From Photorhabdus asymbiotica (GTDB lineage Bacteria; Pseudomonadota; Gammaproteobacteria; Enterobacterales; Enterobacteriaceae), in the NCBI RefSeq assembly GCF_003634575.1, contig NZ_RBLJ01000003.1, forward strand, positions 434,001 through 498,000: a DNA stretch of 64,000 bases, written 5' to 3'. The notes under the pieces were generated by a model. It saw only the letters and a program-made list of their open reading frames with translations. It ran no database searches and was not told the origin of the DNA. This document shows positions 9,034-52,729 of this stretch, piece after piece; position 1 is the stretch's first letter; the number at the start of each line of letters is the position of its first letter. Position numbers and translations under genes: made by a program.

Positions 9034-9037
9034 AGCG

Positions 9038-9133
9038 TCATCTCAACGGGGTGCTGGCTGTTTAAAACAGCCTTGCTGAGAGTAAACCCGCCGAACCTGA
9101 TCCGGCTAATACCGGCGTAGGGATTTGAGCTGC
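9038..9133 (+). ncRNA. TPP riboswitch (THI element)
   Basis: The leader of thiB carries the conserved thiamine pyrophosphate aptamer. The first conserved block is ACGGGGTGC, then a variable hairpin (GGCTGTTTAAAACAGCC), then TGCTGAGA, then ACCCGCCGAACCTGATCCGG, and finally ACCGGCGTAGGGA. About 80 bases separate it from the GTG start of thiB, room for an expression platform. When thiamine is ample, TPP binding should reduce thiBPQ expression. Confidence 0.97.
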
Positions 9134-9214
9134 TAATCATTTCACAACGGAAACTATCTTTCCGTTTAGCACTTCCTCAGATCCTTTGCCAATCCTCTTA
9201 TTAAGGAGAGCAAA

Positions 9215-12517: not shown

Positions 12518-13323
12518 CTCTTTCGTTTTCCCCAGAATTACAGACTACTTTTTTGACCTCAATTCAGTTAATTGTGATATAAAGAAGGTGGCATTGATAT
12601 AATCACTTCAATATTTAATTTTAATCTCATTGAGTCATTTTTATATAACTTATTTTTACAAGTTATATAATTCATTTAAAAAAATAAAATTAGATTAATT
12701 ATCTATTTTATTTTCGTCACCGTCTTTATTCTTTATTAACTCTATATTTATTCCACTTGATTTATAGCTTATTGCTAAAACAAACAAATATACGGTGTAT
12801 ATTCTGTCAGTATTTTAAGCTTAATCCTATTTTTAATTTTATTAGAATCCCCCATAAATAACTTAAAATCACAATCATCAAAGTAGTATCTGTAATTTCA
12901 TTTAATTCCCATTACATATTTAACACTTATTTTTAATATCGTTAATATGCCGTATGTTTTACAAAGTAACTAAAATTTGGCGATTTGTATAAAACTGTGT
13001 TGATGTTTTTATAAAAGGAATACAGTATTTATGTTAAAAAAACAGTTAATCTATAATCGTAAATTAACCTACTATTTTATTAATAAACATCAATCTATTT
13101 AACTCAAATTTTAAACGTTCAAGTTACTAGAATTATTCTATATTATAAATATAATTCCTATAGCAATCATAATAGCTCCCAAAAAAATCAAATATAATCA
13201 TTTAATTTAAAGTGATTCACATCACACTCTCTATTAGTTTTGGTTTTAAAATCGAATAATAGATGTAACATATTCCTGATTTTGAGGTTATTTAACGTTA
13301 TTATTTTTCAAAGAGAATGATAA
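12518..13323. other. AT-rich non-coding stretch after thiQ
   Basis: About 800 bases without a credible gene, much more AT-rich than the neighbours. One clear structure is an inverted repeat with 11-base arms TTATATAACTT (12641-12651) and AAGTTATATAA (12660-12670), loop of eight. In E. coli the araC-araBAD-polB region follows thiQ; nothing resembling ara genes remains here. The only polB trace lies further on at 14939-15510. Confidence 0.6.
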
Positions 13324-13712
13324 ATGGATTATCAGAATTTATTTCAATTAACTACTTTGGGAAAATTCTACGGTTTAATTAAAGAAAATTTGGTAGGAAT
13401 ACGTATTGAACCAGACGATTTAATTTATACCCGTCATCTTTCAAGTTGCCTCTTTGTTGGCTGCACTCACTCACCCCGGTCACATAGTTATCTATGCTCC
13501 CGGGGATTCGCTCCCTGGCCGTCGCGATGCATCTTGAAATCCATAGGGTATATATAGACAATAGATTTACTTTGCATTCAAGGGATAAATTCACTCCAAC
13601 ATTCGATAATATAGGAACACCATTACGCTGGTTACAACGTGTATTTATCTCATCCAATCTTTGGAATCACAGATATCTAAATCAAATCGAACATAGAATT
13701 TTCTCTATTTAG
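13324..13712 (+). pseudogene. Small unknown gene interrupted by an ERIC element
   Basis: An ATG at 13324, preceded by AAGAGA, opens a frame reading MDYQNLFQLTTLGKFYG and continuing to EPDDLIY, where an ERIC begins. The frame then ends in stops within and just after the repeat. After the ERIC a different frame continues with IDNRFTLHSRDKFTPTF, GTPLRWLQR and a natural stop at 13712. Removing exactly 125 bases (one ERIC plus one TA duplicate, 13428-13552) joins the two parts in one frame of 87 codons. The protein family is not recognised. The start lies 401 bases ahead of the AEC transporter, and the stop is only 12 bases before it, so the two may have formed an operon. Confidence 0.55.
13426..13552 (-). 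repeat. ERIC element (127 bp) inside a small ORF
   Basis: Full-length ERIC from TATACCC to GGGTATA, ATGCATCGCGACGG sub-family read on the minus strand. It interrupts the reading frame at 13324-13712. The TA at both ends is consistent with a TA target duplication, giving a net gain of 125 bases. Confidence 0.95.
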
Positions 13713-13724
13713 AAGGATCTCCAA

Positions 13725-14642
13725 ATGTTAAATGTTTTCTTTTCAATCCTGCCTATATTCTTACTAATTATCCTTGGCTTCTTATCCAAGAAATATATAA
13801 AAGATATTTTTATTTTTTGGAACTTTTCAGATAAATTTGTTTATTATCTCTTTTTCCCAGCTCTATTAATTTTAGATATTAGTGAAGCTAATTTTTCTGG
13901 TGCTAACAATTTCTACCCAATAATATCAACGATAAGTTCAACAATCATCATTGCTATTATTATTTTTACCAGCAAATTTTTCTTTAATACTACACCCGCT
14001 CTATTTACCTCTATCTTTCAAGGTGGAGTTAGATATAACTCATATGTTTTTATAGCACTTTCACAATCACTATTTGGCAGTGAAGGTGTTGCATTATCTG
14101 GATTTTTTGTAGCCTATATGATAATTATCACTAATATTATGAGTGTACTGGTAATGAATCATTATGGTAGTGGAAGTAAAAAAAGCCTCAGTAGCGCTAT
14201 TTTCGCTTTAGCCAAAAATCCGCTAATTATTGGTGCAATCCTTGGCGTGTTACTAAACTTTTTTAACATTCATATTACTGGCCCAATTAAGCAACTTTTT
14301 GTCTACTTATCGAATGCAGCGACACCATTAAGCTTAATGTCTGTAGGCGCAGGATTGATTATTAACATGCACATAAAAAAGATACTTTCAATATCCTACG
14401 CAACAATACTTAAATTGCTTGTAATGCCATTGATAACCATATTAATAATTAAATATTTTGGTGCATCAGGCGTTCCTGCGAATATTGCTATTCTATATTC
14501 CGCAGTACCTTGTGCTGGTAATGCTTATATATTAGCTAGACAAATGGGAGGTGACCATGAAGCAATGGCATCCATTATCACATGGACTACGTTATTATCC
14601 ATCATTACTGTCACATTAATTCTCGGTAGTACAAGCTTATAG
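13725..14642 (+). CDS. AEC-family (auxin efflux carrier-like) permease
   Basis: A 305-residue membrane protein with about ten hydrophobic segments in two repeats. The start MLNVFFSILPIFLLIILGFL, the FPALLILDISEANFSG segment after the second helix, and the C-terminal half with NPLIIGAILGVLLNFF, SVGAGLI and PCAGNAYILARQMGG are typical of AEC transporters such as MdcF and YfdV. Substrates in this family are often malonate, oxalate or other small acids; none can be assigned here. Base composition is strongly AT-rich compared with rapA next door, suggesting acquisition. A clear terminator follows. Confidence 0.85.
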   Translation: MLNVFFSILPIFLLIILGFLSKKYIKDIFIFWNFSDKFVYYLFFPALLILDISEANFSGANNFYPIISTISSTIIIAIIIFTSKFFFNTTPALFTSIFQGGVRYNSYVFIALSQSLFGSEGVALSGFFVAYMIIITNIMSVLVMNHYGSGSKKSLSSAIFALAKNPLIIGAILGVLLNFFNIHITGPIKQLFVYLSNAATPLSLMSVGAGLIINMHIKKILSISYATILKLLVMPLITILIIKYFGASGVPANIAILYSAVPCAGNAYILARQMGGDHEAMASIITWTTLLSIITVTLILGSTSL

Positions 14643-14716: not shown

Positions 14717-14938
14717 TAAATTTCCATAGGAACATTAAACAACTCAAAATTATATAAATATTTTCACGAATCAAAAATCTATTTATTCTGATGTCATTAA
14801 TACTTCAATAATAAAATAATTAAGTTATTCACATGCAATTGGCATTCATGATTTAGTATTATTATCTTCTTATAAAACCAATATTTTAATTCCCCAAATT
14901 ATTTACATATGAAAATCTTAATAAGATAAATATTTGGA

Positions 14939-15510
14939 CTCAAAAGCACCCTTGAGTTGGAATTTGAAATTCACTCTTGCCATTTTCTGATGTCAACCAT
15001 CCGTGGTGCTGAACAAAGGCAGTACAAAACGTTGCCCGGTCTGAGTGGTTATAAATAAAACAGTACGCATTGACTGAACACCTCTGGCACAGGATTTCCA
15101 GAAGCAACTATATTCACTGGTTTTTCATGAGCAGCCCTATCAGGAATTTATCCGTAGCTATGTATTACCAGTATCCTGCAAGGTAAATTTGGTGATAAAC
15201 TAACCTGCCGTAATAAGGTTGGGCCATAAGCTGTCTGACTATCAGCGTAATGTGCCGCCACATGTAAGAACAGCAAGACTGGCAGATGAATACAATCTGC
15301 AACATAACCGACCGGCGCAGTATAAAATGGTGGTTGAATAAGTTATGTCATGACACAATCCGAGCCAGAACCGCAGAAAAACCAGCATGCGTCACTGGAT
15401 TATGATCACGATATCAATAAGCAACTTCAGCCTATCTCCGATGCTATCTTGCTATTTTTACAGGATAATTTTATAACTTTGCTCATCGGGCAGAGGGTAA
15501 TGCCTTTTAG
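14939..15510 (+). pseudogene. polB: DNA polymerase II remnant (polB C-terminal fragment)
   Basis: Translating in shifting plus-strand frames gives successive blocks that match the C-terminal quarter of E. coli Pol II in order. These are LELEFEIHSCHFLMSTIRGAE, then FQKQLYSLVFHEQPYQEFI, then LSDYQRNVPPHVRTARLADE, and last NKQLQPISDAILLFLQDNF with a stop at 15508-15510. Stop codons and frameshifts separate the blocks, and the first roughly 570 residues (polymerase and exonuclease motifs) are absent. Its place directly upstream of rapA is the E. coli position of polB, so this is a decayed native gene, not an import. The lost enzyme is the SOS-induced translesion and restart polymerase. Confidence 0.85.
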
Positions 15511-15709
15511 CTAACCACTATTTGGCTAATTACTATTTTTTGCAGGTGACGACTAGCTTTGCTTCCATTAACATATCGCCCCTTTAACGAGTGATAAGGG
15601 GATTTATGGGGCATCTTTGCATCTGCCCATTATCTCCGTTAGATCAAATAAAAGCTGTCGTCCTTCACCTATCAATAACATTTATCTAACAGAAACTGAG
15701 TCAAAATTT

Positions 15710-51510: not shown

Positions 51511-52641
51511 TTATTTGGTTAAATCATCAAAAAATTTCTTTACGCCATCGAAGAAGCTTTTAGAACGCGGACTATTGGTTTCTCCACCAGTACCACCTAA
51601 AGACTCACCCAATTCACGCAGTAATTCTTTCTGCCTTTCATTCAATTTAACCGGCGTTTCTACCACTACCCGGCACAACAAATCCCCTTGGGCTCCACCA
51701 CGAATAGATTTAACACCTTTACCTTTCATGCGGAACATTTTACCTGTCTGTGTTTCAGCAGGTACTTTCAGTTTCACACGACCATCAAGCGTTGGTACTT
51801 CAATTTCTCCACCCAGCGCTGCCATTGCAAAGTTAACTGGCACTTCGCAATAAAGATTATTTTCTTCACGCTCAAAGATATGGTGCCGTTTCACCTGTAC
51901 CTGAACGTACAAGTCACCAGCTGGTGCACCATTGCTACCCGCTTCACCCTCACCACTCAGACGAACACGGTCACCGGTGTCCACACCAGCCGGGATTTTA
52001 ACAGACAATGTCTTATATTTTTCAACACGCCCATGACCACGACACTTATTACAAGAATCTTTAATGATCTGACCACGGCCATGACAGTGTGGACAAGGCT
52101 GCTGAACAGTAAAGAAGCCCTGGCGCATATGAACTTGACCCGCACCTTGACAGGTTGAACAGGTTACAGGACTGGTTCCGGCTTTCGCACCACTACCATG
52201 ACATGCATCACAGGTTTCCAGCGTCGGGATACGGATCTCTTTGGTTACACCACGAACCGCTTCTTCCAGCGTCAGTTCCATGCTGTAACGTAAATCAGCA
52301 CCACGGCTTTGGCGCTGTTGACGGCGACCACCACCGAAAATATCACCGAACACATCACCAAAGATATCACTGAAATCAGCACCACCACCAAAACCGCCGC
52401 CACCCATGCCGCCTTGTTCAAAAGCAGCATGACCATACTGGTCATAAGCAGCGCGTTTCTGATCATCAGTCAGAATTTCGTAAGCTTCTTTAACTTCTTT
52501 GAATTTACTTTCTGCATCTTTATCACCCTGATTACGATCGGGGTGATATTTCATTGCCAGTCGCTTATAAGCTTTCTTAATCTCTTTTTCGTCCGCTGTT
52601 TTGGAAACGCCCAAAACCTCGTAACAGTCTCTCTTTGCCAT
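51511..52641 (-). CDS. dnaJ: Chaperone protein DnaJ
   Basis: The DnaK co-chaperone that delivers substrates and stimulates ATP hydrolysis. It has 376 residues, as in E. coli. The J domain (1-70) has [14 protein letters not shown] Gly/Phe-rich linker follows ([14 protein letters not shown]). The zinc domain (about 130-210) has four CxxCxGxG repeats: [24 protein letters not shown] and CNKCRGHG. The C-terminal substrate domain ends near FDDLTK. It is downstream of dnaK, and both are expected to rise in heat shock. Confidence 0.98.
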
Positions 52642-52666
52642 CTCTTATTTTACCCTTAACATGCGC

Positions 52667-52729
52667 GCACGGGCGCAGAGTTCCCTCAACGCCCGTGCCG
52701 GTTAATCAGCAACAGCTGTCATAGCTGTT
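52667..52729 (-). other. Two hairpins in the dnaK-dnaJ intergenic region
   Basis: GCACGGGCG (52667-52675) pairs with CGCCCGTGC (52690-52698), and AACAGCT (52711-52717) pairs with AGCTGTT (52723-52729). Neither is followed by a T-run on the minus strand, so they look like mRNA-stabilising or partial-attenuation structures that set the dnaK to dnaJ ratio. That role is inferred. Confidence 0.55.

Follow-up and report, generated by a model that had tools for sequence, protein, structure and literature searches.

What did the ERIC element upstream of the AEC transporter gene of Photorhabdus asymbiotica interrupt? The window, by which we mean the whole stretch of 64,000 nucleotides that was analysed, carries this element at 13426-13552, between two pieces of open reading frame. 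A preliminary description had proposed that a small gene of 87 codons was intact before the ERIC entered. We compared the locus with its counterparts in related genomes. The results suggest that the locus is very probably a pseudogene of a 334-codon dioxygenase gene of the clavaminate synthase/AsnO type, which carries a 741-bp in-frame deletion as well as the ERIC.

Window and genomes compared

The window corresponds to G000:C3:434001-498000, the genome G000 being assembled in 8 contigs and the comparison including one genome of this species. The other genomes named are P. thracensis (G010), P. khanii (G008), P. tasmaniensis (G005), P. caribbeanensis (G006) and G001, which is probably P. bodei. 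In the tree, G011 is the sister genome of the window's genome, with 92.7% identity over rapA and thiQ. The names thiQ, thiP, rapA and polB were assigned via NCBIfam. Elsewhere in the window, a TPP riboswitch (9037-9141) and a tpke11 sRNA (52640-52717) were found.

When positions 13200-13760 were used as a query against 97 genomes, 40 had matches, many of these to the ERIC only. The 3′ flank was found in four Photorhabdus congeners (L002-L005), and local comparison with alignment located both flanks in all four. Among 110 plasmid records that matched the locus, none covered 80% of the query, and the 20 matches listed corresponded to the ERIC part only.

Reading frames on both sides of the ERIC

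The present-day features around the element are as follows.

13324..13557, + strand: 77-codon ORF, which reads through the ERIC and ends just past it
13426..13552, + strand: ERIC element of 127 bp, counting the TA at each end; relatives lack 125 bp here
13494..13712, + strand: 72-codon ORF, with its ATG within the ERIC, followed by the 3′ piece of the gene
13725..14642, + strand: intact AEC (auxin efflux carrier family, Pfam Mem_trans) transporter gene, which adjoins the dioxygenase gene in relatives

Left of the ERIC, 35 residues are open from 13324 without a stop, and right of it 52 residues are open from 13554 to a stop ending at 13712. Both pieces translate without a stop, and subtraction of 125 bases joins them into 87 codons from 13324 to 13712, the stop lying 12 bases 5′ of the AEC start at 13725, as had been described. 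The ERIC itself is stop-free in frame 0. The 77-codon ORF had no Pfam match. The 72-codon ORF, which includes the 3′ piece, scored 12.9 bits with TauD, below the cut-off of 27, and its NCBIfam matches were also sub-threshold. Since the short pieces gave no profile match above threshold, the family was identified through the relatives.

The orthologue in relatives is a predicted dioxygenase

In the four congeners, the corresponding ORF has 334 codons, and the AEC start lies 12 bases past its stop. The P. thracensis protein (L003), the one orthologue that was tested, matched Pfam TauD with 44.4 bits (cut-off 27). In the PDB search, asparagine oxygenase (2og5, E 3.8e-13) came closest, and hydroxylases of arginine and of lysine were matched as well. 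Against NCBIfam equivalogs all scores were far under the cut-off (best 74.5 vs 345), so no substrate was assigned.

The intact protein possesses an H-I-E motif at residues 147-149, a distal histidine (H290) and R311; thus the H-x-D/E...H triad and the arginine are present. By AsnO and VioC, we take these residues to be the ligands of iron and 2-oxoglutarate. The orthologue is accordingly predicted to be an Fe(II)/2-oxoglutarate dioxygenase of the clavaminate synthase/asparagine oxygenase type, with amino-acid hydroxylation as its putative activity. It matches the AsnO, VioC and clavaminate synthase-like hydroxylases over most of its length, whereas the window copy lacks residues ~11-257. Our literature search found no paper on a clavaminate synthase-like dioxygenase in Photorhabdus. 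Together with the AEC gene, the dioxygenase gene appears to form a two-gene unit in which it stands first. One guess is that AEC exports the hydroxylated amino acid made by the dioxygenase.

The window copy carries a 741-bp in-frame deletion

Aligned with the intact orthologue, the window copy shows the following parts.

13324..13425, + strand: 5′ remnant of the dioxygenase gene, covering codons ~1-10 and then ~258-281 of the orthologue's 334
13352..13355, + strand: deletion junction, placed to within a few bases, at which 741 bp (247 codons, in-frame) of the intact orthologue are missing
13553..13712, + strand: 3′ remnant, in which 52 codons of the dioxygenase gene and its stop survive; from the active-site region, the distal His and the Arg remain

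The deletion, which the preliminary description did not report, lies inside the same ORF. Lengths from 700 to 789 were tried against the four relatives, and matches were counted over 94 positions. With 741 bp, 85, 81, 83 and 72 positions matched, and the runner-up length gave 55, 58, 57 and 51. A separate comparison with P. thracensis and P. khanii gave the same excess (731, that is, 741-10). By these alignments the length of the deletion is unambiguous.

The HxE motif (residues 147-149 of the intact protein) is gone from the window copy, and the 87-codon remnant therefore could not work as a dioxygenase of this kind. A search for the rest of the intact protein elsewhere in the window's genome gave no match at E <= 0.001, the single match being residues 268-334. 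The proposal that the two halves belong to one protein holds in the relatives, in which they are separated by 247 further codons. That 741 bp is divisible by three and the frame stays open over 87 codons counts weakly against a pseudogene; the argument is weak because one deletion in three keeps the frame by chance.

The ERIC inserted at a site that is empty in relatives

The ERIC has inverted termini (TATACCC/GGGTATA) and, as had been described, TA at both ends. It is predicted to form one long, near-palindromic hairpin (-44 kcal/mol, z -5.1), and 0 of 200 shuffled sequences were equally stable. At the same point, the sequence of all four Photorhabdus relatives has no ERIC and falls 125 bases short of the window's. 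A difference of 125 bases from an element of 127 bp is exactly what a 2-bp TA duplication predicts. The ERIC was inserted at this point, and empty sites exist in relatives. As the target at 13426 is TATA, a duplication of TA and one of TATA cannot be separated at this one site.

The ERICs found across 788 kb of the window's contig were compared with P. thracensis or P. khanii. From 37 comparisons, 19 with under 12 of 15 bases matching in a flank were dropped, which left 18 comparisons representing 13 sites. The 13426 site accounts for two of the dropped rows: it reads TA in both relatives, with 10-11 of 15 bases matching in the left flank, under the cut. Three further dropped rows read TA, four TG and one CG, and the remainder show longer gaps or overlaps. 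At the clean sites the gap was 2 nt in 12 of 13 and 3 nt in one, and the dinucleotide was TA in nine, the rest being AA, CA, TG/CG and the one 3-nt gap. At three of the nine with TA, the ERIC seems to be nested in another ERIC, and the match in the relative is itself an ERIC copy. When the nested sites are excluded, the gap is 2 nt in 9 of 10 and the dinucleotide TA in 6 of 10. In the first 400-kb stretch, the sites 188188, 260637 and 317616 can be read readily by eye. Some empty sites of relatives thus show CA, TG, CG or AA where the ERIC copy has TA, and later substitution is possible.

Thus the proposed TA duplication is ambiguous at its own TATA target, and the empty sites and the 2-nt gaps elsewhere agree with it; they support TA duplication as the best general model for ERIC insertion. 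Passages of PMC2759123 and PMC2229807 already describe both TA duplication and ERICs within genes. In its length of 127 bp, its ends, hairpin, TA duplication, many copies and intragenic position, the window copy is like the known ERIC (IRU/RU-1) elements of enterobacteria, among them those of Photorhabdus. It does not differ from them in kind, and the gene in which it sits is a dioxygenase gene without its middle.

ERICs are abundant in the window's genome, and at least one is young

The 788 kb of the window's contig contain 99 full-length ERICs (39, 41 and 19 in three stretches), corresponding to 9.8, 16.5 and 13.6 per 100 kb. G007 has 39 in 400 kb (9.8 per 100 kb), P. thracensis 5 in 800 kb (0.2, 0.8 and 1.2 per 100 kb) and P. 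khanii 1 in 400 kb (0.2 per 100 kb). For P. luminescens, a passage in PMC10969869 gives 711 ERIC copies. Flanks of 34 of the 99 ERICs were matched in P. thracensis or P. khanii, and 32 of these sites were empty. In G007, 18 flanks were matched, of which 14 were empty and 4 had an ERIC nearby. Insertions common to the two genomes were considered for these four, and the two that were read (188188 and 260280) lie at different positions. Conversely, of the 39 ERICs of G007, 14 had matched flanks in the window's genome (12 empty) and 19 in P. thracensis or P. khanii (all 19 empty). From these counts we infer at least two lineages in which ERICs multiplied independently.

Within the window, a further ERIC lies at 2188-2314. 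The sister genome G011 (L221) has a single TA and no ERIC at that site, so this ERIC probably entered after the split from G011. A short ERIC form without the centre (~60-80 bp) recurs at G000:C3 249552, 311715, 380560, 452748 and 547039. In Yersinia, according to a passage in PMC2229807, co-transcribed ERIC RNA affects mRNA stability.

The dioxygenase-AEC unit across the genus and beyond

Among 12 genomes of the genus, four have a complete dioxygenase gene, two a remnant (the window's genome and P. caribbeanensis) and six give matches of 25-29% identity alone. A complete AEC gene is present in six of the 12, fragments alone in three, and the other three gave no match. The unit lies between thiQ and rapA in the window's genome, P. 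tasmaniensis, P. khanii and P. thracensis. At this place AEC fragments are left in G001, G004, P. caribbeanensis and G009, and the unit is absent, with no ERIC there, in G002 and G007. In G007 and P. caribbeanensis, the unit is found at another place, whole or broken. Among 13 loci examined, 8 have the full gene beside AEC, 2 have fragments and 3 have none; five of the eight full loci are from Serratia or a Pluralibacter MAG (L057, L058, L060, L061 and L063). The spacing between dioxygenase and AEC at these loci is nearly as in Photorhabdus. In a wider sample, 4 of 295 genomes of the family match the dioxygenase at E <= 1e-30, including P. khanii.

P. akhurstii (L065) and P. caribbeanensis (L062) carry a different internal deletion, apparently common to both, and P. 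caribbeanensis alone has a 57-bp half-ERIC within that dioxygenase remnant (L062 3895-3951). Since the deletion is apparently common and the ERIC is in P. caribbeanensis alone, the deletion would have come first in that case. At its thiQ-rapA place, P. caribbeanensis has a full ERIC inside the AEC remnant (L055). G011 has lost the whole unit, and where the break meets a polB remnant there are 46 bp from the start of an ERIC (L130 885-930). The comparison shows a unit that was broken or lost repeatedly in Photorhabdus, once more with an ERIC in the dioxygenase remnant.

Next to the AEC gene, the window contains a remnant of polB (DNA polymerase II) at 14933-15514. Its alignment with the P. thracensis gene covers the 3′ portion, and two short ORFs at 15219-15341 and 15350-15514 match the C-terminal end. 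P. thracensis has a 782-codon ORF between AEC and rapA.

Because half-ERICs lie at deletion junctions of the unit in P. caribbeanensis and G011, we considered whether ERIC copies may give rise to deletions beginning inside their hairpin and so help to dismantle the neighbourhoods they enter. This idea is unlikely. In 400 kb there were nine partial ERIC matches. Seven of them, shortened or diverged in the interior, keep both ends (one of them damaged); the other two are cut off (269674 and 327267 of that stretch). Half-ERICs were also sought along the window's contig (788 kb) and in G007 (400 kb), and 24 were unpaired (9, 8, 2 and 5), several of which proved full-length by another search. No deletion was demonstrated at a cut-off end, and the loss of the region in G002 and G007 without an ERIC there argues against the idea, which is speculative. 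A passage in PMC3091717 describes ERICs at a rearranged P. luminescens locus, with a part in its plasticity.

Selection and age of the damage

Over 83 comparable codons of the remnant, the uncorrected ratio was 0.12-0.19 against the four intact genes, which gave 0.06-0.17 among themselves. As the remnant codons still look constrained, the decay is recent. Six changes are private to the window, three nonsynonymous, all left of the ERIC, and three synonymous, all right of it; six are too few to reveal relaxed selection. The window AEC gene had dN/dS of 0.06-0.11 against six other Photorhabdus, like the values among those six. With damage this recent, the ratio cannot tell whether AEC has been under selection since.

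Discussion

Judged from the sequence comparisons, the 87 codons are the two ends of a broken gene, a case of ordinary gene decay. The dioxygenase may have become dispensable, and the deletion would first have taken its catalytic middle, an order taken from P. caribbeanensis and not from the window's own lineage. An ERIC, presumably moved in trans by a TA-targeting transposase, would then have entered DNA that was already unconstrained. The remnant may be left solely as a leader for the retained AEC gene, which would be expressed through it.

The order of events may have been the reverse, the ERIC first inactivating an intact 334-codon gene and the 741-bp deletion following. This is possible but rather unlikely. 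At the junction of the lost unit in G011, the half-ERIC may have preceded the loss; the deletion that P. caribbeanensis apparently has in common with P. akhurstii, however, is older than its ERIC. In the window, the deletion junction is ~72 bp away from the ERIC, and as the frame is dead after ERIC insertion, a later in-frame deletion would be chance.

That the ERIC broke a functional small gene of 87 codons is very improbable. The frame is open and in register on both sides, and both ends are well conserved. However, the four relatives with an intact locus have 334 codons, the short frame being owed to the missing 741 bp; among matches at E <= 0.001 in the 12 genus genomes no ERIC-free 87-codon form was found, and loss of the HxE motif would preclude a working dioxygenase of this kind. 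A collapse in the assembly is hardly credible: the gap is known from assembled sequence alone, but its breakpoint is ambiguous by a few bases only, and the missing part has no match at E <= 0.001 elsewhere in the genome, an assembly of 8 contigs.

The pseudogene reading carries a caution, since an open frame across a mobile element is no proof of a former intact gene. The comparison also yields a set of young Photorhabdus ERIC insertions with natural empty sites. For the genus, it shows that the dioxygenase-AEC unit is being lost repeatedly and that the AEC gene can survive.
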